Shown one piece after another: positions 25,113 through 45,658 of a stretch of 64,000 nucleotides of DNA. Both the position numbers and the translations under genes were made by a program. How positions within the stretch are numbered: the first letter of the stretch is position 1; every line of letters starts with the position of its first letter. Source of the stretch: Leifsonia sp. 466MF. GTDB taxonomy: Bacteria > Actinomycetota > Actinomycetes > Actinomycetales > Microbacteriaceae. The notes beneath the pieces were generated by a model. That model ran no database searches and was not told where the DNA came from. It saw nothing but the letters and a program-made list of their open reading frames with translations. The stretch covers positions 3,348,001 through 3,412,000 of the forward strand of contig NZ_LT629696.1 of the NCBI RefSeq assembly GCF_900100265.1, in the 5' to 3' direction.

Positions 25113-25199
25113 GGATGCTCTCTCTCGTCGGTCAAAGGGGCGAGCCCATCCTGGCAGAGGGTGCGGCCGGCGCGGGTCGGCGGAGCTAAGGTGGCTCGC

Positions 25200-26366: not shown

Positions 26367-26428
26367 GCGGCAGCGGGATACTGTACCGTTCTGGTCATTG
26401 CATGTCGCCTCGGGGGGAGCGCTGTTTC

Positions 26429-27382: not shown

Positions 27383-27391
27383 GAACGCCGG

Positions 27392-28816: not shown

Positions 28817-28995
28817 GGGGTCTCCTGTGGAAGCGGTGGCGCTGGACGCTCTGCCCACCTTCCACACTAGGAGAACGCATCCCGTGGAGGCTCGGACAGT
28901 GCGTCGGCATTCTGCGTCGGCCGCAACAGGTTGTCGCGGCGCACGCCTGAAGGCAGCGTTGATCGATGCGTTGCTGAGCGACGTGGCCTGACCGC

Positions 28996-29973
28996 TCAGC
29001 GCGTGACGCGCACCCCGGAGGCGATCAATGGGCCGACAGCCCGCGGTGCAACACCGAGATGTTGGCGGAATGCTCGATTGAGGTGCGAGAGGTCGCTGAA
29101 TCCCCACTTCGCTGCCAGAGAGGTCAATGTCGTGCGACCTTCCATGGACACGATGTCATCGGCGCACTTCTCCACCCGCAGATGCATCACGGTTTGGCTG
29201 AATGTGAGGGGCGCACTCTCGTAAATCTGATGGAGCTTCCGCACGGAGATTGCGAAGTGATGGGCGATCGCGCCAGGCGAGGTGTCGCCGTATTGAAGAT
29301 GCCGTACGACGAAGTGCTCGATGCTGCTGCGTAGCGCCTCGTCGCGAGCGGGCTCTCCCGTGAAATCGTCGGACGGCTTCGCCTCAGCCAACACGCCGAC
29401 GAGCGCCGCGATCGCTGTGCCCGCTGTGGTCGCCTGCGTATCGGTCAGTTCCGCGGCCCGCGCCCATGCTGAGCGCATCGTGTCGGCGAGCACCGCTCCG
29501 ATCCCGCGCCCGGCCGAGAAGGGCCGCGCAATCATGTCGTCGGTGATGCCGCCGGGGATCCGCGCGGATGGCACGCGGAACGAGATCGTGCGCCAGGGGT
29601 CGATGTAGTCGAGACGGAACGGGCGCGTTGCATCGACGATCGAGAACGTTCCGGGGCCCGACATCGTCTCCTGCGACCCTTGGCTGACCAGACAGCGACC
29701 GCGCAGCATCAAGTTGATGAACACCACCCCATCGGAGACGCGCGCGACCTCCTCGTCTCCGTGGCGCATAGTCTGCACGCACGTGCCGATCTCCGCCCCG
29801 TTGACGGCGCCGAACGCGTGAGAATCGACCCAGCCCTCGAGGCCCGCCTCCCGCCAGGAGTCCCGCGAATCTCGGGCCGTCGGCCGAAGTGGGGTGAAGG
29901 CCTCGCATACAACTTCGCGCCAATACGCGTATTGCTCGGATGCGGGTCGGTCGGTCGTGTTCCACCGTTGCAC
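28996..29973 (-). CDS. AraC family transcriptional regulator
   Basis: The 325-residue regulator has an N-terminal cupin-like AraC-binding domain (about 20-180) and a C-terminal double helix-turn-helix (IAHHFAISVRKLHQIYES, then LTSLAAKWGFSDLSHLNRAF). It resembles the AraC_binding_2 plus HTH_18 group. GGAG lies 7 nt before the GTG. It is divergent from an acyl-CoA-dehydrogenase-fold enzyme with a 240-nt gap, and it probably activates that gene. The pair is slightly less GC-rich than its neighbours, so it may have been acquired together. Confidence 0.86.
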   Translation of the reverse strand: MQRWNTTDRPASEQYAYWREVVCEAFTPLRPTARDSRDSWREAGLEGWVDSHAFGAVNGAEIGTCVQTMRHGDEEVARVSDGVVFINLMLRGRCLVSQGSQETMSGPGTFSIVDATRPFRLDYIDPWRTISFRVPSARIPGGITDDMIARPFSAGRGIGAVLADTMRSAWARAAELTDTQATTAGTAIAALVGVLAEAKPSDDFTGEPARDEALRSSIEHFVVRHLQYGDTSPGAIAHHFAISVRKLHQIYESAPLTFSQTVMHLRVEKCADDIVSMEGRTTLTSLAAKWGFSDLSHLNRAFRQHLGVAPRAVGPLIASGVRVTR

Positions 29974-30213
29974 AACTCCACTCCCTTCCGCCGTCTGCGG
30001 ACCCCTTGCGATGCGAGGGCTACAGAACCAGCAGACCAATCCAATGTTTCCGTTTGCTTCGTCGCGAGTTTCCGCGCTGTAACCGATCGCTCACATTCCC
30101 GTCGTCTGCACTGTCATCCCACCCGCACTGCACGCTCATACAATTCGCCGCATGTTCGAGCCTGGGACGCTACCCGAACCGATCCCCGACCCAGCAGAAT
30201 TGGAGCCACCCCG

Positions 30214-31467
30214 ATGCCCATCGATTTCACACTCTCCGACGAACAACTCGGTCTTCGTCTCCAGGCGCGCGAGTTCGCCGAGACCGTTCTGAAAGGCGTC
30301 GAGAGCGCTATTGCTCCGGCAACCGATCCCCTGGTCCGATTCCGCTCGCTCAAACCCTTCTACCAGCAGATGGTCGACGCAGGATTCGTCAGCGGTCTTG
30401 TCCCCGCCGAGAACGGCGGGAACCGCTTCAGCAACCTGGAGTTCGCACTCGCTTGTGAAGAACTGGCCAGGGTGGACGTCAACGTTCCATCGGCCATCCT
30501 CGGCACCGGTCTCGGACTGTTTCCGATTATCGCGGCAGGTACGCCCGAGCAGAGGGAGCGCTTCTTCGCCCCCTTCCTGGACGGCAGCCCGGCACTCGCC
30601 GCCATTGCCTTCACCGAGTCAGCGGGCGGCGCGAACTTCGATCACCCGGATCCCCGGTACGGAGTTCAGACCTTCGCCGTCCAGGATGGCGACGAATGGG
30701 TCATCAACGGCAGCAAGGCTTACACCACGAATGCCTCCGGGTGGGACGACGGGGGCGCGGACCTGATCAGCGTGGTGTGCCGGATCGACGAAACGAAGCC
30801 TCCGGAGGAGTCGCTGGCGATCATCGTGGTGGAGAAGGGGACGCCGGGAGTGGAGATCACCGGGATCATCGACACCGTCGGCCACCGCGCAACCAACTCA
30901 CCGGTTGTGGAGTTCCGGGACGTGCGCGTGCCGCTCTCCAACCTGGTCGGCGCGCCCGGCGACGGTCTCAGCCTGACGAAAGGCTCCTTCTCCTGGACGT
31001 GCTCGAGCATCGGCGCGGCAGCCGTCGGCAAGATGCGTGCCGCCTTCGAGCTCGCGTACGACTTCGTCAAGACCGAAAAACGATCCGGAAGCGTGCCGGT
31101 AATCGAGCACCAGAACGCGGGCTACATGCTCGCCGACATCAAAACCCGGATCGAGGTGGGACGCTACTTCGCCTGGAAAGCTGCCGACCACTTCGATAAG
31201 ACCGGAGGGCTCGATCGGGAGTTGTCGAACATGGTGAAGATCTACAACTCGGAGCTTTCGGTGCAGACCGTCTACGACGCGATGCGCTTGGTCGGCGTCG
31301 ACTCGTACGGAGATCGCTCGGAGCTCGGTGGAATCATGCAGGATGTCCTCTGCTTCCCGGTCTACGACGGCGGCAATATGGGCGTCCGCCGGCGTCACCT
31401 GCACGAATTGCTTCGCAACCCCCGCTACGACCACCTGGCGGCGGGCGAGAACCGTCTCTCAGCCTAG
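30214..31467 (+). CDS. Acyl-CoA dehydrogenase-fold flavoenzyme with Asp at the usual catalytic Glu
   Basis: This 417-residue enzyme has the three-part acyl-CoA dehydrogenase layout: an N-terminal helical domain, FTESAGGANFDHPD and INGSKAYTTNA in the middle beta domain, and a C-terminal helical domain. Where short- and medium-chain dehydrogenases have Tyr-Glu-Gly with the catalytic Glu, this protein reads VYDGGNMG. Nitroalkane oxidase in the same superfamily uses Asp at that position. The enzyme could therefore be an oxidase or monooxygenase and not a true dehydrogenase. It is divergent from an AraC regulator. Substrate unknown. Confidence 0.82.
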   Translation: MPIDFTLSDEQLGLRLQAREFAETVLKGVESAIAPATDPLVRFRSLKPFYQQMVDAGFVSGLVPAENGGNRFSNLEFALACEELARVDVNVPSAILGTGLGLFPIIAAGTPEQRERFFAPFLDGSPALAAIAFTESAGGANFDHPDPRYGVQTFAVQDGDEWVINGSKAYTTNASGWDDGGADLISVVCRIDETKPPEESLAIIVVEKGTPGVEITGIIDTVGHRATNSPVVEFRDVRVPLSNLVGAPGDGLSLTKGSFSWTCSSIGAAAVGKMRAAFELAYDFVKTEKRSGSVPVIEHQNAGYMLADIKTRIEVGRYFAWKAADHFDKTGGLDRELSNMVKIYNSELSVQTVYDAMRLVGVDSYGDRSELGGIMQDVLCFPVYDGGNMGVRRRHLHELLRNPRYDHLAAGENRLSA

Positions 31468-31576
31468 GTCGACCGCTGGCGGTGAGCACGGGGCTTGTGT
31501 TTGCCTCATGTAAACAACATGTGACTTTTCCGTCCGCGAAGAAGCTCGCCGGATCGGATCTTCCTATGCTGCCTCC

Positions 31577-33028
31577 ATGACCACTTCCCCCACGGTAGGG
31601 ATAGCGCCCGCCGACGCGCAGCATGTCAGCGTCACCAGCGTCGAATCGGGCGGCATCGAAGCCATTCCGCCGGAGCGCCGGCACGGTTCTCCATGGCAGC
31701 TTTTCGCCACCTGGACCGCCCCGAATCTCGAGTTCGCGACGATCTTCGTCGGCGTGATAGCGGTGGCGTTCTTCGGGCTGGGCTTCTGGCAGTCGATGAC
31801 CGCGCTCGTCTTCGGCACGGCGCTCGGCGCCCTCACCCAGGGCATCCTGTCGACCTGGGGTCCCCGTGAGGGGCTCGCCCAGATGGTGATCGGCCGCACG
31901 GCATTCGGCAGCCGCGGCAACATCCTGCCGTCGGCCCTGAACACGGTGATGGCCGGGCTCGGTTGGTTCGCGGTCAACTCCGTCAGCGGCGCTTTCGCAC
32001 TCACCACACTGACCGGGATGCCCGCCGTGCTGTCGCTGCTGATCGTCGTCGTCGTCGAGGTGGTCGTCGCCTTCATCGGCCACGACCTGGTGCAGCTCTT
32101 CGAGCGGTACGCGACCTACATCCTGGGAGCGATCTTCCTGGTCGCGACGATCACCGTGTTCGCGCATGCGAACCTCGGCGCTCCGGTCAAGGGCGGCGGC
32201 TTCAGCTTCGCGGGCTGGACTCTGACCGCCGCTGCCGCGTTCGGCTATGCCGCGGGGTGGAACCCCTACGCGTCCGACTACAGCCGGTACCTTCCCGCGA
32301 ACTCCAGCCGCCGGGCGATCGGCTGGGCGGCCGGTCTCGGCAACTTCATCAGCTGCGTCGTGCTCATGGCCGCGGGCGCGGCGGCGGCGACGATCGCGGG
32401 ATTCAACCCCGACGATCCGACGGCCTCATTCACCGCCCACATGCCGGTCGTCATCCGCGACCTCACCCTGCTCGCCATCGCCGTGGGGGCGATCGCGGCG
32501 AACGCGCTCAACATCTACTCCGGGGCGATGTCGTTCCTCGCCGCCGGCATCAAGATACCGTTCGCCTGGCGCCGTGCGATCGTCGCGCTCGGCTTCGGCG
32601 TCATCGGGTTCTTCATCGCGTGGAGCGCTCTGCCGGACGCGGGAGCGAAGTACGAGAACTTCCTCCTCGTCATCGCCTACTGGATCGCGCCGTGGCTCGG
32701 CGTCGTCCTCACCGACCGACTCCTGCGCCGTGGCACCGAGATAGCGAGCCTGGTCACGAGCCACGCGAATTACCGCAACCCGGCGGGTTGGATCTCGCTC
32801 CTGGTCGCGGGCGCGGTGTCGATCTGGCTGTTCTCGGCTCAGACGTTCTACACGGGCCCGATCGCAGCGGCAGCGCCGATCGGCGACCTGACGCCGCTCG
32901 TCGGGTTCGTGCTCGCGGCCGCGCTCTACTGGATCCTGTTCCGCGCCTTCAAGGTCCGGCTCGGCGCCTCTCTCGCGACGGAACCGTCGGTGATCGTCGG
33001 GGTGGACGCCGCGGACACGGTCGCGTGA
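31577..33028 (+). CDS. NCS1 family cytosine/purine permease
   Basis: The 483-residue protein has about twelve membrane segments and the NCS1 N-terminal block FATWTAPNLEFATIFVGV. The central YAAGWNPYASDYSRYLP block is typical of nucleobase:cation symporters. It overlaps the next gene, a cytosine-deaminase-like enzyme, in GTGA, so cytosine is the likely cargo. The 109-nt upstream gap contains CATGT-N5-ACATG near 31507 that may be a weak regulatory repeat. Codon use is normal for the chromosome up to its end. Confidence 0.88.
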   Translation: MTTSPTVGIAPADAQHVSVTSVESGGIEAIPPERRHGSPWQLFATWTAPNLEFATIFVGVIAVAFFGLGFWQSMTALVFGTALGALTQGILSTWGPREGLAQMVIGRTAFGSRGNILPSALNTVMAGLGWFAVNSVSGAFALTTLTGMPAVLSLLIVVVVEVVVAFIGHDLVQLFERYATYILGAIFLVATITVFAHANLGAPVKGGGFSFAGWTLTAAAAFGYAAGWNPYASDYSRYLPANSSRRAIGWAAGLGNFISCVVLMAAGAAAATIAGFNPDDPTASFTAHMPVVIRDLTLLAIAVGAIAANALNIYSGAMSFLAAGIKIPFAWRRAIVALGFGVIGFFIAWSALPDAGAKYENFLLVIAYWIAPWLGVVLTDRLLRRGTEIASLVTSHANYRNPAGWISLLVAGAVSIWLFSAQTFYTGPIAAAAPIGDLTPLVGFVLAAALYWILFRAFKVRLGASLATEPSVIVGVDAADTVA

Positions 33029-33501
33029 GCGCCGCCGACGCGGATGGCCGCGTCTACACGACGGACGCCGAGAAACTCTCCGTCGCGACGGCGGAGGCGC
33101 GGCGCGGCGCGGGGGCCGGTGGCATCCCGATCGGCGCCGCGCTGTTCGACAGCGAGGGCAGACTGCTCGGCAGCGGTCACAACCGCCGGGTGCAGGACGG
33201 CGACGCCTCCATGCACGCCGAGACGAACGCCTTCCGCAACGCCGGACGCCAGCGCAGCTACCGCGACACGGTCATGGTCACCACCCTGTCGCCGTGCTGG
33301 TACTGCTCCGGCCTGGTCAGACAGTTCGGCATCGGCCGGGTGATCGTGGGCGACGACCGCAACTTCCTCGGCGGCCAGGACTGGCTGGCAGAGTACGGCG
33401 TGGAGGTCACGGTCGTCAACAATCCAGAGCTGGTCGCGATGATGGGTGCATTCATCGAGTCCAACCCCGAGCTGTGGAATGAGGACATCGGGGAGGAGTG
33501 A
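33025..33501 (+). CDS. Cytosine deaminase of the CMP/dCMP deaminase fold
   Basis: The 158-residue zinc enzyme carries HAETNAFRNAG and TLSPCWYCSGL, which provide the zinc ligands (His, two Cys) and the catalytic Glu. The downstream QFGIGRVIVGDDRNFLGG block matches yeast-type cytosine deaminases. It converts cytosine to uracil and ammonia in the cytoplasm. The GTG overlaps the stop of the permease, so uptake and deamination are coupled. It ends 17 nt before the left boundary repeat of the genomic island. Confidence 0.88.
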   Translation: MSAADADGRVYTTDAEKLSVATAEARRGAGAGGIPIGAALFDSEGRLLGSGHNRRVQDGDASMHAETNAFRNAGRQRSYRDTVMVTTLSPCWYCSGLVRQFGIGRVIVGDDRNFLGGQDWLAEYGVEVTVVNNPELVAMMGAFIESNPELWNEDIGEE

Positions 33502-33517: not shown

Positions 33518-33548
33518 CCTGTAGCGAGGGCGGGATTCGAACCCGCGA
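33518..33548. repeat. Left att-like boundary repeat (tRNA-Met 3' half remnant)
   Basis: These 31 nt match the 3' part of tRNA-Met at 39375-39405 with one mismatch, and similarity continues for 8 more bases after a one-base gap. No complete tRNA can fold here because the anticodon arm and 5' half are absent. This is the expected trace of integration into a tRNA 3' end. Confidence 0.85.
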
Positions 33549-33656
33549 ACCACGATCAAGGGCGGTGCGGGTTATCGCAAGCCGACGCCATACGCCCGGG
33601 CGAACTGCTCCAGGCCCGCGTCGTATAGCCCGGACGATCGAATGTTGTATGGCCAG

Positions 33657-33851
33657 CTAGCGGTTCTTTCGCGACCAAAAGGGTCGACGCGCTCGTTCGG
33701 CTCGCGCTACCCGCACGGCAGCGGCAAATATTTCGTTGACGGTCGCCTCGCTGGTGAGATCTGGCGTTTCGATCTTCTTATACTCGGGCACACGAACCCG
33801 CCCAATCGAGCCACCCGCTGCATCCGCAACCGATACTGTGCTCATGCTCAA
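33657..33851 (-). CDS. 64-residue island protein of unknown function
   Basis: The small protein reads MSMSTVSVADAAGGSIG at its start and ends in a basic RARRPFWSRKNR tail; the middle (EATVNEIFAAAVRVARAERA) should form one amphipathic helix. AGGAGG lies 7 nt before the TTG start, while the ATG two codons later is 13 nt away, so TTG is preferred. It follows the GAF-like gene by 29 nt on the same strand and is probably cotranscribed. No family is recognised, and it may be a small partner of the membrane protein. Confidence 0.6.
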   Translation of the reverse strand: MSMSTVSVADAAGGSIGRVRVPEYKKIETPDLTSEATVNEIFAAAVRVARAERARRPFWSRKNR

Positions 33852-33880
33852 ATCCTACCCTCCTTTACCTGTACCACGCC

Positions 33881-34684
33881 CTAAGATCTGCCGCTGAGCG
33901 GATACGTAAGAGCGAAGGCAATGGCAAGTATCTCGGCGACCACCGACACGATCTGCTTCTCGATGTCACCGAACTGACGTGCACTCGGCGAGTCTACGTT
34001 GAGCATCCCGAATGAGTAACCGTCGTTACTGACGATAGGAATCGACACAAAGGAGAGCCACTCCGCAGTTTCGCGGTCCCAGCCAGGCGGCCCCTCAACC
34101 GTCCGATCGTCGATGATGAGGATCTCACCGTTCTTGACTCGTTGAAGTGCCAGGTCCGCCGCGGTTCTGCCAGCAAGAAACTCTCCAGGACGCTCACCGC
34201 GCCCCCCGTAGCCAACGACACGGAGCGCATCGCCGTTCGCGGACATTCCATAGACTCCGGTTCGTGCCGAATCGACGTGTCGAAGGAGAAGTGTTGAAAG
34301 CGCCCATGCCGCAGCGTCAGCAACAACCTTAAGGTGAGCCTCACGCTCGCCTACCGGCATATCGGGCATCTCCGAAACCTTCGCGAGCACTGGTTTCAAA
34401 GCATCTTTCATTGCTACCTGGAAGTTCGCCGCGTCGTGAGTATTTCGAGCCTCAGTCAGATCTACGCGCCACCCCCACAGGACTTGGGCGGCGATGCCAG
34501 CGATGATCAAGACCCCGCCAAGTAGGGCGAAGAACCATGCCCAAGCGAACCCGGGCCAGATGTCGCCACCAGCATCCTTACGAGCCTCGAAAACGAAACC
34601 GCCAGCGACAACCACCCCGAGAACAAAAACGCGAAGCACGGTCAAGCCAAATCGCTTCCAGCTCCCCGGTACCCGTCTTGACAT
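33881..34684 (-). CDS. Two-helix membrane protein with GAF-like sensor domain
   Basis: This 267-residue protein begins with two hydrophobic segments at about residues 11-30 and 45-70, then a GAF-like domain from about 105 to 255. GAF marks include VVGYGGRGERPGEFLAG, NGEILIIDD, SFVSIPIVSNDGYSFGMLNVDS and FGDIEKQIVSVVAEILA. The chosen ATG is 7 nt after TAACAT, as in a leaderless transcript; an ATG at 34720 would add MLRCANCNNILR. It lies between the NACHT gene and the 64-residue gene. It could be a membrane sensor or effector of the island module, but that role is inferred. Confidence 0.7.
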   Translation of the reverse strand: MSRRVPGSWKRFGLTVLRVFVLGVVVAGGFVFEARKDAGGDIWPGFAWAWFFALLGGVLIIAGIAAQVLWGWRVDLTEARNTHDAANFQVAMKDALKPVLAKVSEMPDMPVGEREAHLKVVADAAAWALSTLLLRHVDSARTGVYGMSANGDALRVVGYGGRGERPGEFLAGRTAADLALQRVKNGEILIIDDRTVEGPPGWDRETAEWLSFVSIPIVSNDGYSFGMLNVDSPSARQFGDIEKQIVSVVAEILAIAFALTYPLSGRS

Positions 34685-34859
34685 GCGCAAAATGTTATTG
34701 CAGTTCGCGCAGCGCAACATGCGACACCCAGTTCGAGCGAGTGCCCTGCAGGCTTAGCCGCTTGGCTGTTGAAACTTCCAGGAGCGTCGAGGGCCACGCA
34801 CCCTCCAAGCGATGCGATGGCGGACAAAAAGCGTCAGGACGCCCCTTCGGAATCTGTCG

Positions 34860-37800
34860 CTACTCGAGTCTTAGCCTTTCAGCGACTTCGTACATTCTCT
34901 CAGCGATTCGCGGGTTGGCATCCGCGGCGACAAACGAAGTCCGCGCGGCGATATGGACGCCATTAGGTAGTTCGTCGTCATCTAGCACTCGCAGAAACCA
35001 CATTGCACCGAAGACGCGATCGTCAGAACAGGCGATCGCGCGGAGATGCGAATCGAGCGAACCTGACCAGAGCGCTTCAAGCGAACTGTCCACTACGGCG
35101 CACGCTTCCGCGACGATGCCGTACGAAAGATCCGGTCTCGAAGCCATCGCACTTTTCAGTACTGCCCGCTCACACGTGACAATCAGACTCGGCTTCGAGT
35201 GAAGCGCTAGCCGCAAGGCACCCGCCGCCTCAGTCGCCTCGTCTAGTCGGCCGAGCAAGAAATCGGCATGGGCTTCGTCCATGTAACGCGAGTACCAATC
35301 GCGAGCACCAAGAGAACGGATGAGATCGCCACTGGGCCGATCGTGGGAGGGCTCGGCGAGGTTAATCCACGGGAGCCAATGTGGTCCAAGAACCGAATCC
35401 GCAGCGATTGGACTCACCAGCTCAAACAGCTCGTTGCGCAACTCTGGTGTGAGCAACGTGGGATCCTCGAGGCGCGCGCTCGCAATAAGGCTTGCCAGAA
35501 ATACGGCGACGTGACCCAAGGCTTGCTCGGCAGTCCCCCGGGCGGCGAAGGCGCGGACTATCCTCACCTGTTGATCGAGTTCCGCTGCATCAGTCGGGGT
35601 GCCCGCGAGAAATGTAAACCCTTCGTGCGCGTAACCTTCCCCTGGGACGAACGGCCAGAGCGGCGTGCCCGACGGGGATTTAGCGAGACTCGACACGAAA
35701 GCTTCGGTCACCGGAAACACGGCGCCCCACTCGTTCTGCGCCGCGTACCAATGGTCGACTTCGCCTAGTTCGCCGCGACGAGACGCCGCGGCAAGCTGCA
35801 AAAGCGCAGTTGTGCGAGATGTCGAAGTCGTGGCAGCAATCCGGTCGGCGTACTGGGCGCATGCCACGAACGGCCAGGGGGTGACCTGGGGTGCGCTGTC
35901 ATTATCGCTAGCACTGAAAGCCTCCAGAGCATCGGCAAGACTTGAGCTCGATGGATTAGCGGCGAACTTCGCGATTTCGATGGACGCGCGCCATTCGTAG
36001 TCGTCTGACTCAATCCCGGCGAGCCACTGCCATGCCTCCGTGTTTCCTCCGAGCGGGTAGAAGAAGACCGTTACGGCTGACTCCTTCGAGCGAGGGCTGC
36101 CGAAGTCAGGGCGATCGCGGATGTTGGCTCCCGAAAGAACGGAGAGGTTTCGCATCCACTCAGGCGAGGGCGTTTCGTGGCTGCGCAGGATTGACCTTGT
36201 ACCCAGTCGAGCGCGTTCCTCGTAGAACATTGTTGGCGGGGCAGTAAGGAAGCAGTTCCCCACTACTTCTCCCATTCCTGAGTCCCAAGTGTCCCAGGCC
36301 CATTCGATCAGCGCCGCCCGCAAATGAGGATCCGCCTCATCGAAGATTCTTCGCATGGCTTTATCCGCGCGGTCGGCGTGCTCACTACGAATCATGGCCA
36401 GCAGTGCGACCCGGTTAATAGAGTGCACGGCGCTCATTGCGTTCACCGATTCCAGCTCGTCCCAAAGGAGGCTGGCGTAGTCGGTGGAGGCCAAGAAGAG
36501 CAGCTGTCTAACGTCGACGCTCCTCGCCTGCGACAGCGCCCGAAGTGCATTCTGGACAAGACCCCGGGCGTACCTTGGCATCGACAGGCAGCTACCATCG
36601 CGCAGAATATCGATCGCGAGGTCGGCTCCAGGCAACATGAGCTGGGTGGTCTTGTCGTCAATATTGAGGCGCTCGCAAGACAGGACAATTTCAGCTCTCA
36701 GATGCTCCTTGTGGGCAAAGACGCTTCCGATCGCGAAAAGAACGACATTCCGCCAATAGGGCGTCCTTGCACGCGCTTCAATCTCACCAATGACATCGGT
36801 TTCGGGAAGGTTCACCAGATACTCGGCAGCCATAAATTCTTGAAGGCTTCGCAACTCGAAACCGATGCGGTCGGCTTGAAGTTTCGCGAGAAATACCAGT
36901 CGATCTGTAACGAGGCGCGTGAAGTCATCGACGAGGGCAGCCGCCTCCACCGGCTCGTGCCCTTGCTCTCGGAATCGTTCGGTCAGGAAGAGATTGAACT
37001 CGTCGATCGTCAACGAAGAGGTGGTTTCTCCAACGGCCGCTCCACGCGTTTGGAGTTCGAATCCGATTCGTCGATGGAGATAAACCACATCGGACTCATA
37101 GCGCTGCACCAGTTCGCTTAGCTCGCCGCTCTTCTCTTGCTCGCGTTCCGAAATCACGTTGTAGTACGCCGAATATAGACGCGAGCGATCATTGGGTGCC
37201 TTGCCGAGTTTCTCCAGCAGAACCTCCAAGATCGTGACCTGCAGTGGCGACTCAAATAGTCGCGACGTGTGCTCTTCCCTACTGGCGCGCCTGAGCCGCT
37301 CCATCACTTTTTCGGCATTGGTTGTGCCCTCTCCCATCCTGAGTGAGACGAGACCTTCCGCATACGAGATGGCTTCGGTGACGGTGAGCGCGCTGAGCTC
37401 GAAATGTTGGTATTCGTTCGGCGAGAACTCCTCGCCGTAACCTTGGGGGCGCGTGGTCGCCACTGCGGCGACGTCCGCTCCCAGCCCCGCCACATCGATG
37501 AAGAAATCTCGGATAGCGGTCATGACTTGTTCGCGGTTACTGGACGCGGGCACTTCATCCAACCCGTCAATGAGAAGGAGCCACGGATATCTCTGCAGCC
37601 ACCTCCGCACCATCATGGAATCAACGGGAACCGAAGACCTGTCGGATACCCGCGACGCGACGTAATGAAGTAGGGAGTCCTTCGGGCTTTCGGCAAGGTG
37701 GTCAGCGAGCTCAGAGAGGACTATACGGACTGGCCACCTACGCGCTCGAATCTCGGGTAGACCGAGTTTCTGGCGTCTTGCCTCTACTCTTGCAGCGGTA

Positions 37801-38852
37801 TCCCTGACATCAGCGACTTCGACGCTCGAACCTCTGAGGAACTCGGCACGGAAAAGCTGAGCGAGCCATTGCGTAACAGTGCTCTTTCCTTGCCCGGGAC
37901 CTCCTACCAGCACCGTACGGTTGGAACTCCGCCTGTCGCCGCCAATAGCATCCGCTCCCCGGTTGAACTCATTCACCAGGTACGTAACAATCCCCGAACG
38001 CTCCCGCGCCCTCTCCCGGTCAGTTTCAGCGATGTCGAAGTATTCGGAGGGGTCCACATCCTCGTCGTCTTCGTCGTCCGTGACAGAATCGGCAAGGTCA
38101 TCAGATTCGCTAGTATCCACGGTGGCCCAAGGCTGAGGGGGCAGACTTGCTGGGAGATCCACAAAGACGTCACCCATGGTCACTCGACCATCTCCGGAGG
38201 TCCCAGCCTGTGTGAGATTGATGATGTTCTCGTCGATGAGCAGCCGTGCGGTGTAGCCGGTCAATGCCTCTCCGAGCGTGCGCTCGGTATCATCTACTTG
38301 CGACAGCATCGCCGCGATAACGTCTCCGGGCGTAAGGAAGGCAGCATAGCGCCGGCGAATGTCTTCTGCATCGTCGAGCTGAGTGATCAGCTCGTGGTAA
38401 TCCCAAAGTTGAACTTCTTTGATCGGTAGGTCGGCCTCAGAAACGAGGCGTGATAGTTCTGCTCGGATATCGTCCTTACCCGCCCCGGGCACGGAAGAAA
38501 GCCTTACGTTCGTAACGAACAGCAAGTATTCGGGCTTTTCGTAGCGCTTCGAATCGGGGCGTGTCCACTCAGAAATCTCTTTGCGCACGACGGACTTGAG
38601 CCAGGTTAGGTTGGCACTCACATCTGACGTGTGGACTTTGAACTTAGCCTGCAGGACTCCGTAACCGTTCCAATCATTGGACCTGCCGAATGATGGTGCT
38701 TCGCCGTTCCAGATGGCTTCTCTTCCACCATCAGGTCCGTCTCCGAAAACGCTCAATTTCGGGCCAATTTTTCTGGCCAGAAGCGCCTGCGTTAGATGCT
38801 CGAAGTTACGGGGGCCCAACGAGTCGAGGTTGTAGTCCATGGTGTTGATCAT
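34860..38852 (-). CDS. PD-(D/E)XK-like nuclease fused to NACHT NTPase, bacterial NLR-like defence protein
   Basis: The 1330-residue protein has three parts. Residues 1-170 look like a Mrr-type PD-(D/E)XK domain: GDGPDGGREA with Asp at 41 and VLQAKFK with Lys at 70. An acidic linker at 246-270 precedes a STAND/NACHT NTPase: Walker A VGGPGQGKST at 316-325 and Walker B LLLIDGLDEVP at 425-435. Residues 600-1330 are helical with no recognised repeat and would be the sensor. This matches antiphage bNACHT/Avs-type proteins that cut DNA after binding a phage protein. Its start overlaps a zinc-ribbon ORF as ATGA. AT-richer codon use supports horizontal transfer. Confidence 0.85.
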   Translation of the reverse strand: MINTMDYNLDSLGPRNFEHLTQALLARKIGPKLSVFGDGPDGGREAIWNGEAPSFGRSNDWNGYGVLQAKFKVHTSDVSANLTWLKSVVRKEISEWTRPDSKRYEKPEYLLFVTNVRLSSVPGAGKDDIRAELSRLVSEADLPIKEVQLWDYHELITQLDDAEDIRRRYAAFLTPGDVIAAMLSQVDDTERTLGEALTGYTARLLIDENIINLTQAGTSGDGRVTMGDVFVDLPASLPPQPWATVDTSESDDLADSVTDDEDDEDVDPSEYFDIAETDRERARERSGIVTYLVNEFNRGADAIGGDRRSSNRTVLVGGPGQGKSTVTQWLAQLFRAEFLRGSSVEVADVRDTAARVEARRQKLGLPEIRARRWPVRIVLSELADHLAESPKDSLLHYVASRVSDRSSVPVDSMMVRRWLQRYPWLLLIDGLDEVPASSNREQVMTAIRDFFIDVAGLGADVAAVATTRPQGYGEEFSPNEYQHFELSALTVTEAISYAEGLVSLRMGEGTTNAEKVMERLRRASREEHTSRLFESPLQVTILEVLLEKLGKAPNDRSRLYSAYYNVISEREQEKSGELSELVQRYESDVVYLHRRIGFELQTRGAAVGETTSSLTIDEFNLFLTERFREQGHEPVEAAALVDDFTRLVTDRLVFLAKLQADRIGFELRSLQEFMAAEYLVNLPETDVIGEIEARARTPYWRNVVLFAIGSVFAHKEHLRAEIVLSCERLNIDDKTTQLMLPGADLAIDILRDGSCLSMPRYARGLVQNALRALSQARSVDVRQLLFLASTDYASLLWDELESVNAMSAVHSINRVALLAMIRSEHADRADKAMRRIFDEADPHLRAALIEWAWDTWDSGMGEVVGNCFLTAPPTMFYEERARLGTRSILRSHETPSPEWMRNLSVLSGANIRDRPDFGSPRSKESAVTVFFYPLGGNTEAWQWLAGIESDDYEWRASIEIAKFAANPSSSSLADALEAFSASDNDSAPQVTPWPFVACAQYADRIAATTSTSRTTALLQLAAASRRGELGEVDHWYAAQNEWGAVFPVTEAFVSSLAKSPSGTPLWPFVPGEGYAHEGFTFLAGTPTDAAELDQQVRIVRAFAARGTAEQALGHVAVFLASLIASARLEDPTLLTPELRNELFELVSPIAADSVLGPHWLPWINLAEPSHDRPSGDLIRSLGARDWYSRYMDEAHADFLLGRLDEATEAAGALRLALHSKPSLIVTCERAVLKSAMASRPDLSYGIVAEACAVVDSSLEALWSGSLDSHLRAIACSDDRVFGAMWFLRVLDDDELPNGVHIAARTSFVAADANPRIAERMYEVAERLRLE

Positions 38853-38953
38853 GGCTTACGCGCGACCCTCCGGTCTGCACCGCATTCGGGGCAGGCTGTT
38901 TTGGGGTCGAGTATTGAACCACGGACCGTGCACCCGCAGAATCGCGAAACCAT
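38849..38953 (-). CDS. 34-residue zinc-ribbon micro-protein coupled to the NACHT gene
   Basis: The ORF encodes MVSRFCGCTVRGSILD, then ACPECGADRRVARKP. The cysteines at 6, 8, 21 and 24 form a CxC/CxxC pair spaced like a zinc ribbon, followed by a basic tail. Its TGA overlaps the ATG of the NACHT gene in ATGA, which favours translational coupling. A GAGG element lies 11 nt before the ATG, a rather long distance. It could bind nucleic acid or the NACHT protein, or be only a leader. I recognise no named family. Confidence 0.6.
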   Translation of the reverse strand: MVSRFCGCTVRGSILDPKTACPECGADRRVARKP

Positions 38954-39019
38954 TTCGGCGCCGCCCTCGTTTGTGTTAGTCGTCTGTTGAATATCACCGC
39001 GAGCGACCCTAATAGGTTG

Positions 39020-39290
39020 GCGCTCGAGAGCACCGCGCGTACCACGAGCGTGTACGCGGCACGCAAGGCCGTGCTGGCCGCCCACCCTCGGGTCTGGGTG
39101 TCCGAGCTGAGGGACAGGTCGCCACGCCGATGATGCTGCAGTGATGAGCGCGGAACTGAAGGTTGCGTTCGAGTCCGTGATACCGCGACGAGAGACGAGC
39201 CACCGCGAGGAGATGGCATCGGTCGCGTTGTTCCTGGCCTCAAACGACTCGAGTTTCGCCAAGGTCCTCGAGCTGGTAGCCGACCGACGC
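39020..39290 (+). pseudogene. Decayed short-chain dehydrogenase gene fragment
   Basis: One frame from 39020 reads TTSVYAARKAVLAAHPRVWVSE, which matches the YxxxK active-site helix of SDR enzymes, and then meets TGA at 39131. A second frame from 39141 reads EEMASVALFLASNDSS and VLELVADRR, matching the SDR C-terminus. The frames differ by one, the N-terminal Rossmann half is missing, and the usual final glycines have changed. It is therefore a remnant. It fills most of the 425-nt gap between the micro-ORF and tRNA-Met. Confidence 0.72.
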
Positions 39291-39331
39291 GCCACCGCGA
39301 TCTGGCCGCCCTCCTGTCCCCGACAACCAAG

Positions 39332-39360
39332 AAACGGCGGCTGATCATCAGCCGCCGTTT
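39332..39360 (-). terminator. Terminator downstream of tRNA-Met
   Basis: AAACGGCGGCTGA and its exact complement form a 13-bp stem with a 3-nt loop, 18 nt beyond the tRNA-Met 3' end. The stem ends in TTT and a short T-rich tail on the minus strand. It may also act on the opposite strand, because the stem is symmetric. Confidence 0.8.
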
Positions 39361-39374
39361 CCGTGTTTCAAGAA

Positions 39375-39405
39375 CCTGTAGCGAGGGCGGGACTCGAACC
39401 CGCGA
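39375..39405. repeat. Right att-like boundary repeat inside tRNA-Met
   Basis: This 31-nt copy covers the 3' acceptor strand and T-arm of intact tRNA-Met and matches 33518-33548 at 30 positions. Integration here restored a whole tRNA, which is usual for tyrosine-recombinase elements. Confidence 0.83.
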
Positions 39406-39452
39406 CACCACGATTATGAGCCGTGTGCTCTAACCACCTGAGCTACCCCGCC
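39379..39452 (-). tRNA. tRNA-Met (CAT), elongator type
   Basis: The 74-nt sequence folds into a cloverleaf with acceptor GGCGGGG, a D-arm containing AGCTCAG, anticodon CAT at 39416-39418 and a GCGGG-TTCGAGT-CCCGC T-arm. CCA is not encoded. The G1-U72-type pair suggests elongator Met; a lysidine-modified tRNA-Ile(CAT) cannot be excluded by sequence alone. It is the integration target of the island to its left. Confidence 0.92.
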
Positions 39453-39497
39453 GTGGCATCCCCACGTCGAGCGAGCCAGTCGCAGGACGGGAGACGG

Positions 39498-39569
<72 letters not shown>

Positions 39570-39687
39570 GGAGCCGTGACGGCCCGAGGCACGTCGTTTT
39601 CGGCAACCGTTCGAGGATACCACCCACGACAGGGTGCTCCGTACCATTGCGGACGCCCGGCAGCGGCGGCCCCGCCCCCTGCGAGGC

Positions 39688-40644
39688 TCAGGCCGCCTTG
39701 GCCGCCTCCGAGGCTCCGGCGAGCGCCTCCAGCTCGTCGCCCGTGAGCTCGAGCTCGACGGACGCGAGGAGGTCCGGCAGCTGCTCCGTGGTGCGGGCGC
39801 TGGCGATCGGGGCGGTGATGGTCGGCTGCGCGGCCAGCCAGGCGAGGGCGACCGATGCGACGGAGGCGCCGTGGGCGGCGGCCACCTCGTCCAGGGCCGA
39901 GAGGACGGCGCGGCCGGTGTCGTCGAGGTACTTCGCGGCACCGCCGGCGCGAGCGCTGTCGACCGTGACGCCGTCGCGGTACTTGCCCGTCAGGAAGCCG
40001 GCCGCGAGAGCGAAGTACGGCATCACACCGAGGCCCTCGCGCTCGGCGATCGGGCGGTACGTCGTCTCGTACCCGCGCTCGACCAGGTTGTAGTGCGGCT
40101 GAAGGGCGACGGCGCGGTGGAGCCCCTCGCGCTCGGTGATCCGGAACCACTCCTCGATGCGCTCGGGCGAGTAGTTCGAGATGCCGATGTAGCGGACCTT
40201 GCCCGCATCCACCAGGCCGGAGAGCGCCGCCACCGTCTCCTCCAGCGGCACCGTCTCGTCGTCGAAGTGGGCGTAGTAGAGGTCGATGTAGTCCGACTTC
40301 AGTCGCTCCAGCGATGCGTCGGCCGCCCGACGGATGTTGTCGGCAGCGAGCCCCTTGAAGTCCGGGTGCTGGCTCACCTTGGTCGCGAGCACCACCTGGT
40401 CGCGGTTGCCACGCGCCTCGAACCACTCGCCGAGGATGCGCTCGGAGTCGCCGCCCGTGTTGCCAGGGACCCACGCCGAGTAGCCATCGGCGGTGTCGAC
40501 GAAGTTGCCACCCGCCGCGGTGTACCCGTCGAGGACGTCGAACGATGTCTCGCGGTCGGCCGTCCAGCCGAAGACGTTACCCCCCAGAGAGAGCGGGAAG
40601 ACCTCGAGGTCGGACGAACCGATCGTGCGGCGCGGTGCAGTCAT
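39688..40644 (-). CDS. Aldo/keto reductase
   Basis: This 318-residue cytoplasmic NADPH-dependent enzyme has the AKR barrel with LGGNVFGWTADRE, FVDTADGYSAW (catalytic Asp and Tyr), LATKVSQH (Lys) and DLYYAHFDDE (His). The later GISNYSPER and VALQPHYNLVERG blocks are typical of the YajO/Tas-like AKR group. AAGGAGAACAGC before the ATG fixes the start. It stands alone between tRNA genes and a divergent pentapeptide gene. The aldehyde or ketone substrate is unknown. Confidence 0.92.
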   Translation of the reverse strand: MTAPRRTIGSSDLEVFPLSLGGNVFGWTADRETSFDVLDGYTAAGGNFVDTADGYSAWVPGNTGGDSERILGEWFEARGNRDQVVLATKVSQHPDFKGLAADNIRRAADASLERLKSDYIDLYYAHFDDETVPLEETVAALSGLVDAGKVRYIGISNYSPERIEEWFRITEREGLHRAVALQPHYNLVERGYETTYRPIAEREGLGVMPYFALAAGFLTGKYRDGVTVDSARAGGAAKYLDDTGRAVLSALDEVAAAHGASVASVALAWLAAQPTITAPIASARTTEQLPDLLASVELELTGDELEALAGASEAAKAA

Positions 40645-40754
40645 GCTGTTCTCCTTCGTTGTGTCGTTCTTCCACGCTAACGCGGTCGGCCCAGGGCTAT
40701 TCCGGCTCTTCCTGAGGGTGTGGAAAGGTTGCGGCGGACCCGTACTGTGGACGG

Positions 40755-41612
40755 GTGCGCACCGCTGAAGAACCCCGCCGCGAGCTGAGAGCCGACTGCT
40801 CCCGGTGCGTCGGACTCTGCTGCGTCGCCCTCGCCTTCGCACGCTCCGCCGACTTCGCGTTCGACAAGCCCGCCGGCGACCCCTGCGTCAACCTCGACCA
40901 CGACGACCTCTGCACCATCCACCCGAGGCTCCGCGAGAGCGGCTTCCGCGGCTGCACGGTCTTCGACTGCTTCGGAGCCGGCCAGCAGGTGACGCAGCAC
41001 ACCTTCGACGGGATGGGGTGGCGCGGCGACGCCGACCGCCGTCGCGAGATGTTCGCCGTCTTCCCGCTCATGCGCCAGCTGCACGAGCTCCTCTGGTACC
41101 TCGAGGAGGCGCTCGCACTACCCGCGGCAGCCCGCATCCATCCCGCGCTCCGCCGTGCGCGTGCGGAGGTGCTGGAGCTGACAGACGCGCCGAGCGCGGT
41201 CATCGTCGACTCCGACATCGACGACCCGCGCGCACCGGCCGCCGAGCTCCTCCGCGAGGCCGCTCGGCTCACCCGCGAGGCCGGACCCGTCGGCACCGGA
41301 CCCCTCGGTGCCGGCAGGAAGCGGACCGCGCGTTCGCGCATCCAGCCGGGCGCAGACCTCCTGGGCGCCGACCTCCGCGGGGCGGACCTCCGGGGGGCCG
41401 AACTCCGCGACGCTCTCCTGATCGCCGCCGACCTCCGCGACGCCGACCTGTCCCGTGCCGAACTGATCGGAGCCGACCTCCGCGACGCGCGCCTCGACGG
41501 CGCCGACCTCCGCGAGGCGATCTATCTGACGCAGGTGCAGGTCAACGCGGCGACGGGCGACAGCCGCACCCTCCTGCCGCCGACGCTCGACCGCCCCGGC
41601 CACTGGGCATGA
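40755..41612 (+). CDS. YkgJ-like cysteine cluster fused to pentapeptide repeats
   Basis: The 285-residue protein begins with a Cys-rich region ([10 protein letters not shown] at 14-23, then Cys near 44, 53, 67 and 72), like the YkgJ/zinc- or iron-chelate family. After a helical linker, residues 196-258 form about twelve pentapeptide repeats of the A(D/E)LRx type ([16 protein letters not shown]), which should fold as a right-handed beta-helix. The GTG lies 6 nt after TACTGT, suggesting leaderless translation. Pentapeptide proteins may mimic DNA or serve as scaffolds; a metal-binding head joined to one is unusual. Function unknown. Confidence 0.8.
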
Positions 41613-41631
41613 CCGCATCGCGTCACAGAGT

Positions 41632-41712
41632 GCAAACGCTTCCACCCCACTCGCTATACTGCCGCTGTGCGCGGCCGGCCGCGGGACACCGGCGGACGCA
41701 AACGCTTCCACC
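41632..41712 (+). promoter_or_regulatory. Promoter with paired LacI-type operators for the lacI-GH13 unit
   Basis: The 15-mer GCAAACGCTTCCACC occurs at 41632-41646 and again at 41698-41712. Its core GCAAACGCTTCC is a LacI-type pseudo-palindrome with central CG. TATACT at 41655 fits a -10 box, and GCAAAC 17 nt before it could be the -35 box inside the first operator. The LacI protein encoded just downstream probably represses its own operon. Confidence 0.78.
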
Positions 41713-41745
41713 GCATCAGACACGACGCGAGACGCAGGAGGTGGG

Positions 41746-42774
41746 ATGCCCGGGATCGACGATGTCGCGCGTCTCGCCGGCGTCTCCACGGCCACCGTCT
41801 CCCGCGCCCTGAGCGGCAACGGCCCGGTCTCCGACCACACACGGGCGCGCGTCGTCCAGGCGGCGTCGGAGCTCGGGTACGTCGTCTCCTCCGACGCGTC
41901 GAGCCTCGCCTCCGGCCGCACCCGCAACATCGGCGCCGTCGTGCCGCACCTCAACCGCTGGTTCTTCACCTCCGTCATCGAGGGCGCCGAGCGCGTCCTG
42001 CTGGGGCAGGGCTACGACCTCACGCTCTACAACCTCAGCGGGGACGGCGGCGAGCGCCGTCGCGTCTTCGACCACCACCTGCTGCGCAACCGGGTGGATG
42101 CGGTCTTCACCGTCTCGCTGGAGCTGGCGGAGGGCGAGGTTAGCCGGCTCCTCGCACTCGGAAAGCCCGTCGTCGGCGTGGGCGGCCCCCTCCCCGGCGT
42201 CAGCACCCTGACCATCGACGACCTGGCCGTCGCCCGCCTCGCCACAGACCACCTGATCTCGCTTGGGCACATCCGCATCGCCCACATCGGCGGCTCGCAG
42301 GAGTTCGACCTCGACTTCCACATCCCGACCAGCCGGCGCCTCGGCTACGAGCAGGCGCTGCGGGATGCGGGCCTCCCCGTCGACGAACAGCTGCACCGCG
42401 CCTCCGACTTCACCCTCCCCGGCGGTTACGACGCGGCGAAGCAACTGCTCGGGTCGCCGCACGAGCGCCCGACGGCGATCTTCGCGGGCTCGGACGAGAT
42501 GGCCATCGGCGCCATCCTCGCCGCACGCGACCTCGGACTCTCCGTCCCCCGCGACGTCTCCATTATCGGCATCGACGACCATCCTCTCGCCGACTTCTTC
42601 GGACTGAGCACGGTCGCGCAGCATCCCGACCGGCAGGGCGAACAGGCCGCCGCCCTGCTGCTCGACGCCCTCCAGGCCGCGCGGGCCGCTCCGACCCGGG
42701 CACGCCCCGATCCCCTCAGCCACACCGCTCCGGCGGATCTGATCGTGCGGTCCAGCACCGCCGTCCACCCCTGA
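41746..42774 (+). CDS. LacI family repressor of the alpha-glucosidase operon
   Basis: This 342-residue repressor has the N-terminal LacI helix-turn-helix (GIDDVARLAGVSTATVSRAL) and a ligand domain (IFAGSDEMAIGAILAA, IGIDDHPLADFFGLSTV). GGAGGTGGG lies directly before the ATG. It precedes a GH13 alpha-glucosidase gene by 25 nt on the same strand and follows two direct operator copies. It probably senses maltose-like or isomaltose-like sugars and controls its own transcription. Confidence 0.9.
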   Translation: MPGIDDVARLAGVSTATVSRALSGNGPVSDHTRARVVQAASELGYVVSSDASSLASGRTRNIGAVVPHLNRWFFTSVIEGAERVLLGQGYDLTLYNLSGDGGERRRVFDHHLLRNRVDAVFTVSLELAEGEVSRLLALGKPVVGVGGPLPGVSTLTIDDLAVARLATDHLISLGHIRIAHIGGSQEFDLDFHIPTSRRLGYEQALRDAGLPVDEQLHRASDFTLPGGYDAAKQLLGSPHERPTAIFAGSDEMAIGAILAARDLGLSVPRDVSIIGIDDHPLADFFGLSTVAQHPDRQGEQAAALLLDALQAARAAPTRARPDPLSHTAPADLIVRSSTAVHP

Positions 42775-42799
42775 CCATCACAACCGACACGAACACGAG

Positions 42800-44548
42800 G
42801 TGACCACCATCGCCGCTCCGACCCCCCTCCCCCACACCGAGCTCACGCCGTCGGCCCCCGGCCGCGAATGGTGGCGCTCCGCCGTCATCTACCAGGTGTA
42901 TCCGCGCTCCTTCGCCGACTCGGACGGCGACGGGATGGGCGACCTGCCCGGCATCACCCACCGCCTCCCCGCTCTCCGCGAGCTGGGGGTGGATGCCGTC
43001 TGGCTGTCTCCGTTCCAGAGCTCGCCGCAGCGCGACGCCGGGTACGACGTCTCCGACTACTGCGACGTCGACGTCCGCTTCGGCACCCTCGCCGACTTCG
43101 ACACGATGCTCGCGACCGCGCACGACCTCGGTCTGCGCGTGATCATCGACATCGTCCCGAACCACTCGTCGAGCGATCACCGCTGGTTCCAGGAGGCGCT
43201 CGCGGCCGGTCCGGGAAGCCCCGAGCGGGCGCGGTACATCTTCCGTGACGGGAAGGGCGAGGACGGCGAACTGCCGCCGAACAACTGGGAGTCGATCTTC
43301 GGCGGTGCTGCGTGGACGCGCATCACCGAGGCCGACGGGCGGCCCGGCCAGTGGTACCTGCACCTGTTCGACAAGTCGCAGCCGGACTTCGACTGGGAGA
43401 ACCCGTGGGTCTGGGAGCAGTTCCGTGACATCCTGCGCTTCTGGCTGGACCGCGGTGTCGACGGCTTCCGGGTGGATGTCGCCCACGGCATGGTCAAGGA
43501 GGCCGGCCTCCCCGACTACACCCCGCCCGCGCACATGGGCAGCATGGGCGGCACTGCGTCGACGCAGGAGACCGGCGGCATCCCGCTGGAGCCGGAGATC
43601 GCGGCGCACGCCGACGGCGAGCCGCCGACACCTCCCTACTTCGCTCAGGACGGCGTGCACGCCATCTACCGCGACTGGCACAAGGTCCTGGATGAGTACA
43701 CCGGCGACCGCGTGCTGTGCGGCGAGGCCTGGGTGGAGCCGCTCGACAAGCTGGCCCGCTGGGTCCGGCCGGACGAGATGCAGCAGACCTTCAACTTCGC
43801 GTACCTGGAGACCCCGTGGAACGCGTCCGCTCTCCGCAGCGTGATCGACCGCTCGATCGCCGCGTTCAGCAGCGTCGGCGCCCCGAGCACCTGGGTGCTG
43901 TCGAACCACGACGTCGTCCGCCACGCCACGCGCCTTGCGCTGCACGGCGAGAACCTGCAGGGCCACGGCATCGGTCCGAAGACCACCGGGCTGCCGGACC
44001 CGGTCTTCGCTCTCCATCGGGCGCGGGCGGCGACGGCGCTCATGCTGGCCCTGCCCGGTTCCGCCTACCTCTACCAGGGCGAGGAGCTCGGGGTGCCCGA
44101 GGCGATCGGCCTGCCGGACGACGCGCGCCAGGACCCGACGTGGTTCCGCACCAACGGCGAGCGGTACGGCCGTGACGGCTGCCGCGTCCCCATCCCGTGG
44201 GAGGGCGCCGAGGCGTCGTACGGTTTCGGGCCGACCGCCGCGAGCTGGCTGCCCCAGCCGGCGACCTGGGCGGCATACACCCGGTCGTCGCAGGCGGGCG
44301 TTCCGGGTTCGACGCTGACGATGTACCAGGACGCCCTGGAGGCCCGCCGTCGCTACGACCTGGCGTTCGGCTCCCCCGAGTGGATGGACCTGGGCGGCGA
44401 CACGCTCGCCTTCCGCTCCGGCGAGGTCACCGTGGTGGTCAACTTCGGGGAGGAGCCGGTGGAACTGCCCGAGGGCGAGGTGGTCCTGGCGAGCGGCGCG
44501 CTCGACGGAGGTACGCTTCCCCGCGACACGACCGCCTGGCTGGTCTGA
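42800..44548 (+). CDS. GH13 alpha-glucosidase
   Basis: This 582-residue cytoplasmic enzyme has GH13 catalytic motifs in order: SPFQSSPQRDAGYDVSDY, DIVPNHSS, GFRVDVAHG (nucleophile Asp), VLCGEAWVEP (acid/base Glu) and LSNHDVVRHA. The opening WWRSAVIYQVYPRSFAD is standard for GH13 oligo-1,6/alpha-glucosidases. The family releases glucose from maltose-, sucrose- or isomaltose-type sugars. The ribosome site before the GTG is weak (CACGAG), and coupling to the upstream lacI gene may help. Length fits the family. Confidence 0.93.
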   Translation: MTTIAAPTPLPHTELTPSAPGREWWRSAVIYQVYPRSFADSDGDGMGDLPGITHRLPALRELGVDAVWLSPFQSSPQRDAGYDVSDYCDVDVRFGTLADFDTMLATAHDLGLRVIIDIVPNHSSSDHRWFQEALAAGPGSPERARYIFRDGKGEDGELPPNNWESIFGGAAWTRITEADGRPGQWYLHLFDKSQPDFDWENPWVWEQFRDILRFWLDRGVDGFRVDVAHGMVKEAGLPDYTPPAHMGSMGGTASTQETGGIPLEPEIAAHADGEPPTPPYFAQDGVHAIYRDWHKVLDEYTGDRVLCGEAWVEPLDKLARWVRPDEMQQTFNFAYLETPWNASALRSVIDRSIAAFSSVGAPSTWVLSNHDVVRHATRLALHGENLQGHGIGPKTTGLPDPVFALHRARAATALMLALPGSAYLYQGEELGVPEAIGLPDDARQDPTWFRTNGERYGRDGCRVPIPWEGAEASYGFGPTAASWLPQPATWAAYTRSSQAGVPGSTLTMYQDALEARRRYDLAFGSPEWMDLGGDTLAFRSGEVTVVVNFGEEPVELPEGEVVLASGALDGGTLPRDTTAWLV

Positions 44549-44561
44549 GCCGCGCTCGGCG

Positions 44562-45374: not shown

Positions 45375-45414
45375 GCCTCCAGCCTGTCAGACCTGTGTGG
45401 CATGCGTCTCATGA

Positions 45415-45447
45415 CGAAAGCCCCCGGCCGGTGGCCGAGGGCTTTCG
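45415..45447 (-). terminator. Hairpin downstream of tRNA-Tyr
   Basis: Two 15-nt arms starting CGAAAGCCC pair with one mismatch around a 3-nt loop, 20 nt beyond the 3' end of tRNA-Tyr. No U-run is present, but position and strength fit a tRNA terminator. Confidence 0.6.
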
Positions 45448-45466
45448 CGAAGCGTTCTGAACGCGG

Positions 45467-45548
45467 TGGCGAGTGAGGGATTCGAACCCCCGAAGTCGTA
45501 GACAGCTGATTTACAGTCAGATCCCTTTGGCCGCTTGGGTAACTCGCC
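45467..45548 (-). tRNA. tRNA-Tyr (GTA)
   Basis: The 82-nt sequence has acceptor GGCGAGT paired with ACTCGCC, a long variable arm typical of class II tRNAs, anticodon GTA at 45502-45504 and the discriminator A. CC follows the discriminator in the genome. A 10-bp imperfect inverted repeat at 45552-45591 lies immediately upstream and may belong to the ClgR-like gene's terminator. Confidence 0.94.
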
Positions 45549-45658
45549 ATTGGCGCTTTCGACCACCAGTTCACTCGTGACCGAAGGCGCCACACAAGAA
45601 TACTCGGCGGGCGGCTGCAGACGAAATCAGCGCCCGCTCAGCGGCCACACGGCCGGCG

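Follow-up and report, generated by a model that had tools for sequence, protein, structure and literature searches.

The 1330-aa protein encoded at 34860..38852 of the window (the whole stretch of 64,000 nt that was analysed, which is part of the single-contig 4.14 Mb genome of Leifsonia sp. 466MF, G000; labels beginning with G and L are our own) is probably a single-protein anti-phage sensor of the bNACHT (NLR-related) kind that would cut DNA upon infection. The defence kind is a known one; a rare sensor and a second, adjacent module make the locus of interest. The protein and its parts are as follows:

34860..38852, minus strand: PD-(D/E)XK-NACHT-sensor protein, 1330 aa (ORF, NACHT match, homologs)
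38343..38852, minus strand: nuclease-type N-terminus (residues 1 to about 170), containing D41, R44, Q68, and K70 (23-sequence alignment, PADLOC)
37413..37931, minus strand: NACHT NTPase, residues about 308-480, with Walker A K323 and Walker B IDGLDE (PF05729, alignment)
34863..36695, minus strand: C-terminal sensor, residues about 720-1330 (block identities, no Pfam match, profile search)

The open reading frame contains no internal stop, and the motifs GPDGGREA (including D41), QAKFK (Q68 and K70), GGPGQGKST (K323), and LLLIDGLDEVP were found where a sequence-only reading of this DNA had placed them. The NACHT module scored above the Pfam threshold (PF05729, 26.8 bits, cut-off 26.7), and both Walker A and Walker B motifs are present. 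In an alignment of the protein with 22 homologs (A1; 30 homologs were listed, eight of which were left out), residues F17, A23, D41, R44, Q68, K70, E92, T114, D177, and D232 were invariant in all 23 sequences. The above-threshold NACHT match and the invariance of D41, R44, Q68, and K70 argue for the anti-phage reading and, judging by its motif, the N-terminal region would be of the PD-(D/E)XK type. Among the eight homologs left out of the alignment, the nuclease motif was present in L050, L038, L039, and L040; L064 retained the D, Q, and K and lost R44, and the motif was not seen in the ORFs used for L042 and L062. The remaining one, from Nonomuraea gerenzanensis (L052, 4989-8669), kept NACHT and lost the nuclease motif; perhaps it has a different effector activity.

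The label “Mrr-like”, which the sequence-only reading had attached to the nuclease, fared less well. Pfam Mrr_cat gave weak matches in six of the 23 members (best E 0.0012), which speaks for the label, and a profile comparison with the single E. coli Mrr (EcoKMrr) sequence was negative, which speaks against it, so that it is weakly supported. These two results, together with the motif loss in L052, were counted against the anti-phage reading. Residues 5-51 were matched (2.2e-6) by the PADLOC model for the REase that is fused in short-Argonaute systems. A PDB sequence search with the whole protein returned no match, and a PDB search with the effector profile returned a single unrelated one (E 0.47). 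A 34-aa ORF with a CxC...CxxC pattern (38849-38953, minus strand) overlaps the start codon of the NACHT gene by 4 nt (ATGA). This zinc-ribbon-like microprotein was considered as a component of the system and dropped, because no such ORF was present at any of the 22 other homolog loci read.

Conservation beyond the NACHT module, in a region that includes ELRSLQEFMAAEY, extends to about residue 700-780. The sensor proper therefore comprises about 550-630 residues, and not the roughly 700, starting at residue 600, that had been assigned to it. Two full-length relatives were found, in G017 (51% identical) and G740 (40% identical), and the sensor is best conserved in these two only. Compared by block, the window protein is 60, 48, 66, 75, and 66% identical to its G017 relative over residues 1-780 and 36, 32, and 36% over residues 781-1330; the corresponding values for G740 are 49, 38, 58, 62, and 46%, and 17, 31, and 19%. 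In the full-length relatives, the effector and NACHT parts are thus conserved and the sensor is strongly diverged, a pattern that favours the anti-phage reading. Most other homologs could be aligned only up to about residue 700-850. Plasmids and predicted viral contigs also carry members of 1252-1357 aa, so that the length of the protein is often maintained even where its sequence has changed.

A profile built from the sensors of the three full-length members detected one protein on a viral contig (L126, 2.5e-8) and another on a Variovorax plasmid (L054, 4.6e-7); these E-values assume a set of 1000 sequences. In a phylum sample, two of 395 other genomes matched this profile, in its first part only. 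One such match (G881:C23:58584-58883, L125), confined to the first part of the profile, lies in a 1330-residue open frame, possibly another long-sensor member. No Pfam match was obtained in the sensor region at E ≤ 1, and self-comparison for internal repeats (score 41) did not rise above 40 shuffles (mean 38, maximum 47), in agreement with the earlier remark that the sensor contains no recognised repeat. As far as sequence can tell, the recognition part is rare and matches no described domain.

A duplicated 3' part of tRNA-Met delimits the 5.8 kb of foreign-looking DNA in which the gene is located. The boundary features are:

33518..33567, minus strand: distal partial copy of the tRNA-Met 3' part, an att-like repeat (30/31 core, 45/51 gapped, shuffles)
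39378..39452, minus strand: intact tRNA-Met, anticodon cat (ARAGORN), whose 3' end is the proximal repeat copy, 39375-39405
39331..39361, no strand assigned: hairpin directly behind tRNA-Met, kept in relatives (alignment and seven of the eight partial copies listed in the genus)

The two copies of the tRNA-Met 3' half form a 31-nt direct repeat (33518-33548 versus 39375-39405) with 30 of 31 positions identical, as had been noticed earlier. A pattern search for the 31-mer with up to three mismatches found just two places in the 64 kb, both of them the repeat copies, and 100 shuffles yielded no chance match. When one gap was allowed, the similarity covered 45 of 51 columns (33518-33567 versus 39375-39425), spanning the anticodon stem to 3 nt beyond the tRNA 3' end. 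The DNA between the copies (33549-39374) is 58.9% G+C, compared to 67.5% at 20000-33500 and 71.2% at 39453-46000; the AT-richer block described from the sequence alone is therefore real. Third-position G+C was 0.63-0.65 in the two main genes and 0.73-0.93 in other ORFs picked in 20000-50000. The preceding ORF, which we take to be deaminase-like, ends 17 nt before the distal copy. Between the tRNA and the NACHT gene, a single frame (39140-39330, plus strand) presumably resembles the C-terminal end of a short-chain dehydrogenase and is probably a gene remnant.

A query covering 39300-39640 gave matches in 40 of the 40 genomes searched (own genome included), many of them through tRNAs alone, and the site was fetched from eight relatives of the same genus. 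On the right side of tRNA-Met, synteny with the window holds in all eight, each piece being about 74-95% identical. On the left side, 3-7 kb of each relative were compared, and none matched the window, except for one 94-nt piece (73%) located far off in L020. Among the left flanks of the relatives themselves, just a single pair shares more than 120 nt (122 nt at the beginning of the flank, comprising the tRNA end and the hairpin). Because unrelated DNA lies to the left of the tRNA in the relatives, the tRNA-Met site is a hotspot. At least eight further partial tRNA 3' copies were found in six genomes of the genus (G005, G009, three in G010, G015, G020, and G023), and shorter ones, in G011 and G012, were among the matches listed. 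A tyrosine integrase gene (L079, 10046-11209, minus strand; PHROG integrase, 2e-69) is located 42 nt from one of the G010 copies; this integrase is 54.5% identical to the one adjoining an REase-NACHT gene of G005, close to tRNA-Arg, and 56% identical to another beside tRNA-Ser in the window's own genome. Such integrases thus occur at tRNA genes in the genus.

The window itself encodes no tyrosine integrase, and a PF00589 search of the genome produced four loci, all elsewhere. The empty tRNA-Met site expected from the sequence-only reading was not found either: no genome examined joins the same left flank to an intact tRNA. The left flank (14000-33500) was scattered or absent in the six genomes searched with it, and in none of these was it found next to the tRNA. 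In about 40 kb read beside the site in G013, and 40 kb in G014, the only left-flank DNA was a 1-kb piece in G013 (26384-27384), about 20.6 kb from the tRNA. The last part of the left flank, starting at about 31500, was located elsewhere in G009 and G012. The lack of an integrase in the window and of an empty site would fit a repeat that is not an integration scar, with the block brought in by a rearrangement or by homologous recombination and the tRNA fragment left behind by an older event; the distal copy, as the alignment indicates, also lacks the hairpin that seven of the eight listed copies in other genomes include. We consider this doubtful, however, since the repeat, like integrase sites, stops 3 nt beyond the 3' end of the tRNA, and since the tRNA is a hotspot, some copies of which in this genus are linked to integrases. 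Acquisition of the block by past integration appears to be the best reading, based on the direct repeat, the low G+C, the unrelated left flanks in eight relatives, and the integrase-linked copy in G010. The block would most likely be a remnant or a non-autonomous part of a tyrosine-integrase element. The tRNA-Met island proposed earlier stands as far as repeat, composition, and hotspot are concerned, and not with respect to an integrase or an empty site.

Besides the NACHT gene, the block carries a second module that the earlier reading left unmentioned:

33881..34720, minus strand: 2TM-GAF protein, 279 aa (Pfam GAF_2 and GAF; transmembrane segments by hydropathy)
33657..33851, minus strand: small ORF, 64 aa, behind the GAF gene (ORF; relatives behind GAF genes in G326 and G518)

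Both GAF models scored above their cut-offs (GAF_2, 35.2 bits; GAF, 32.0 bits), hydropathy indicated two transmembrane segments, and homolog comparison makes the ATG at 34684 the probable start. Relatives of the GAF family were found at 14 places in 13 of 299 family genomes (own genome included), and GAF was matched in eight of nine aligned members. Of the 13 places other than the window, 11 were read, with a flank of just 1.5 kb in six cases. A small ORF directly follows the GAF gene at eight of the 11 (G326, G518, G560, G622, G521, G586, G015, and a second G000 locus), and the ORF list contains none for G451, G611, and G514. Clear similarity among the small ORFs is limited to the window, G326 (tblastn, 9.7e-17), and, by alignment, G518. 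The GAF modules of G326 and G518 adjoin tRNA-Leu, and the G611 GAF gene adjoins an integrase. A GAF or 2TM-GAF gene followed by an ORF of about 58-76 aa recurs at L106, L096, L097, L098, L100, L101, L085, and L086, in genomes that we take to be Microbacteriaceae-like.

No NACHT gene was present beside the GAF gene at any of the 11 places read besides the window. Since the module is mostly found without NACHT, we lowered the idea of GAF as an obligatory NACHT partner. The NACHT protein, the membrane GAF protein, and the small ORF might still form one system, with GAF as a membrane sensor or effector and NACHT as a second arm. The NACHT and GAF genes are adjacent and on the same strand in the window, and the NACHT gene of G017, the closest homolog, has a neighbour of the same GAF family (profile comparison, probability 93.7%, E 1.9e-7) with a small ORF 10 nt behind it, so that two of the three full-length members have such a neighbour. 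Yet Pfam does not call the G017 neighbour GAF, strand and order differ in G017, the neighbour in G740 is a different one (weakly Abi_alpha-like), and the other GAF places read offer no adjoining NACHT gene; a single system is, therefore, improbable. A more elaborate version, to which we likewise give little credence, is a two-arm immunity in which the DNA-cutting NACHT protein, whose sensor would respond to a phage feature not among the triggers known for bNACHT/Avs proteins, is combined with a membrane GAF/small-partner module that would be mobile itself and would sense a nucleotide or other small infection signal at the membrane. The adjacent 2TM-GAF and small-ORF module is probably separate cargo; it may be a mobile cassette using sites in common with the NACHT gene, and a functional link is possible.

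Homologs of the NACHT protein were found in 27 plasmid records, none covering 80% of the query. Predicted viral contigs gave no match when searched with the single protein and ten matches when searched with the core alignment; seven of these ten have a full-length ORF, and a pattern search detected the nuclease motif in six of the seven (not in L130). Homologs on plasmid records and predicted viral contigs argue for the anti-phage reading. None of 50,697 phage records contained a relative, which was counted, with the missing integrase and empty site, against the anti-phage and island readings. In three of the predicted viral contigs (L128, L130, and L132), NACHT proteins of 1324-1357 aa are flanked by neighbours whose sizes agree between the contigs (about 600 and 340 aa ahead of, and about 670 aa behind, the NACHT gene), perhaps marking a hotspot in related phages or satellites. 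One scan of genome contigs yielded a single NACHT match, a distant one from a Bernardetiaceae MAG.

Genes in the fetched genomes are ORF picks by codon-position G+C, not annotation, and were read at loci other than L080, L081, L109, and L110. Ten neighbour proteins, picked by eye from seven homolog loci, were scanned against PADLOC. A known or candidate defence gene was detected near the homolog at five of the seven loci, which also supports the anti-phage reading: a CBASS effector and cyclase (L054), AbiD (L055), PDC-S28 (L087), an LmuB-like (Lamassu-like) gene about 3 kb away (L088), and an OLD/GajA gene about 3 kb away (L084). At L033 there was no PADLOC defence match, and at L093 only a subtilase model was matched, which was left out of the count; at the positive loci, one scanned neighbour in L088 and the Abi_alpha-like one in L084 had no PADLOC match. 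A tRNA lies within 3.1 kb of the gene at five of 12 wide-flank chromosomal loci (window, G017, G005, G305, and G571; loci with only 1.5 kb of flank were left out), with a chance probability of 0.0002-0.004 (0.0016-0.019 without the window), given an assumed baseline of 5-10% and a distance chosen post hoc. In G017, tRNA-Arg (cct) lies 0.4 kb away from the homolog. In G005, a more distant REase-NACHT gene (L033, 5961-13437) adjoins a tyrosine integrase, about 2.6 kb from tRNA-Arg (cct). That the protein mainly serves a mobile element (plasmid or phage exclusion, or element stability) and not host phage immunity would agree with the plasmid and viral-contig homologs and with the integrase beside the G005 homolog, but is very improbable, as defence genes are common cargo of mobile elements and make up most of the scanned neighbours, and in any case this explanation overlaps with host defence.

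A nuclease-NACHT-sensor defence protein, as first proposed, is thus well supported by motif conservation, homologs, and neighbours, with the nuclease type assigned by motif. In the mechanism we favour, the C-terminal 550-630 residues would bind an infection signal. Binding would let the NACHT module, whose motifs are present, oligomerise with ATP, as expected from the family. Clustering would then activate the N-terminal PD-(D/E)XK nuclease, in which catalytic-type residues are intact, and the nuclease, by analogy with bNACHT25 and bNACHT32, would degrade DNA and stop the infected cell.

Taken alone, the 1330-aa protein is an ordinary addition to a known defence family. Its significance lies in extending to an actinobacterium a nuclease-NACHT layout studied in E. 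coli, in providing full-length members with conserved effector and NTPase and a diverged sensor, which are useful for mapping what sensors recognise, and in a locus that points to a mobile 2TM-GAF and small-ORF module.

Avs proteins (antiviral STAND NTPases) follow the logic of effector, STAND NTPase, and sensor. The window protein shares this general logic, and PMC10907252 likewise describes a tripartite layout with variable sensors; no Avs model was among the five PADLOC matches at E ≤ 1. Two other sources report further validated PD-(D/E)XK and P-loop NTPase defence proteins (PMC13092281) and list Mrr-like REase effectors in other conflict systems (PMC7159879). An uncharacterised REase-NACHT protein of 1320 aa encoded by a Klebsiella variicola plasmid (L121, WP_150341749.1) is a homolog with the same layout, 25% identical over residues 4-881 and with similarity undetectable beyond residue 881; a gene carrying the annotation Lit-family phage exclusion lies 2.6 kb away.

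The nearest described counterparts are bNACHT25 and bNACHT32, members of clade 6, which, according to PMC12169576, consist of an N-terminal PD-(D/E)XK DNase, NACHT, and NCH1. No NCH1-named family was among our Pfam matches at E ≤ 1, in a library that may hold no such model. The same paper states that the D48A substitution abolishes defence and that MS2 infection causes DNA degradation; activity there needs the nuclease active site, which, with the shared layout, argues for the anti-phage reading of the window protein. The central NACHT module and the tripartite effector-NACHT-sensor layout of bNACHT proteins were both found, the former by the PF05729 match and the Walker motifs, the latter by block identities and motif positions, and, for the clade 6 effector, the nuclease motif was present in 23/23 sequences and Mrr_cat was weakly matched in 6/23. 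According to PMC12169576, bNACHT25 and bNACHT32 have a helical C-terminal sensor region, whereas the window protein is actinobacterial and has a sensor without a Pfam match. With the layouts compared by description only, all three would combine an N-terminal PD-(D/E)XK domain, a central NACHT, and a C-terminal sensor, and from this shared anatomy the window protein is predicted to work like bNACHT25 and bNACHT32.
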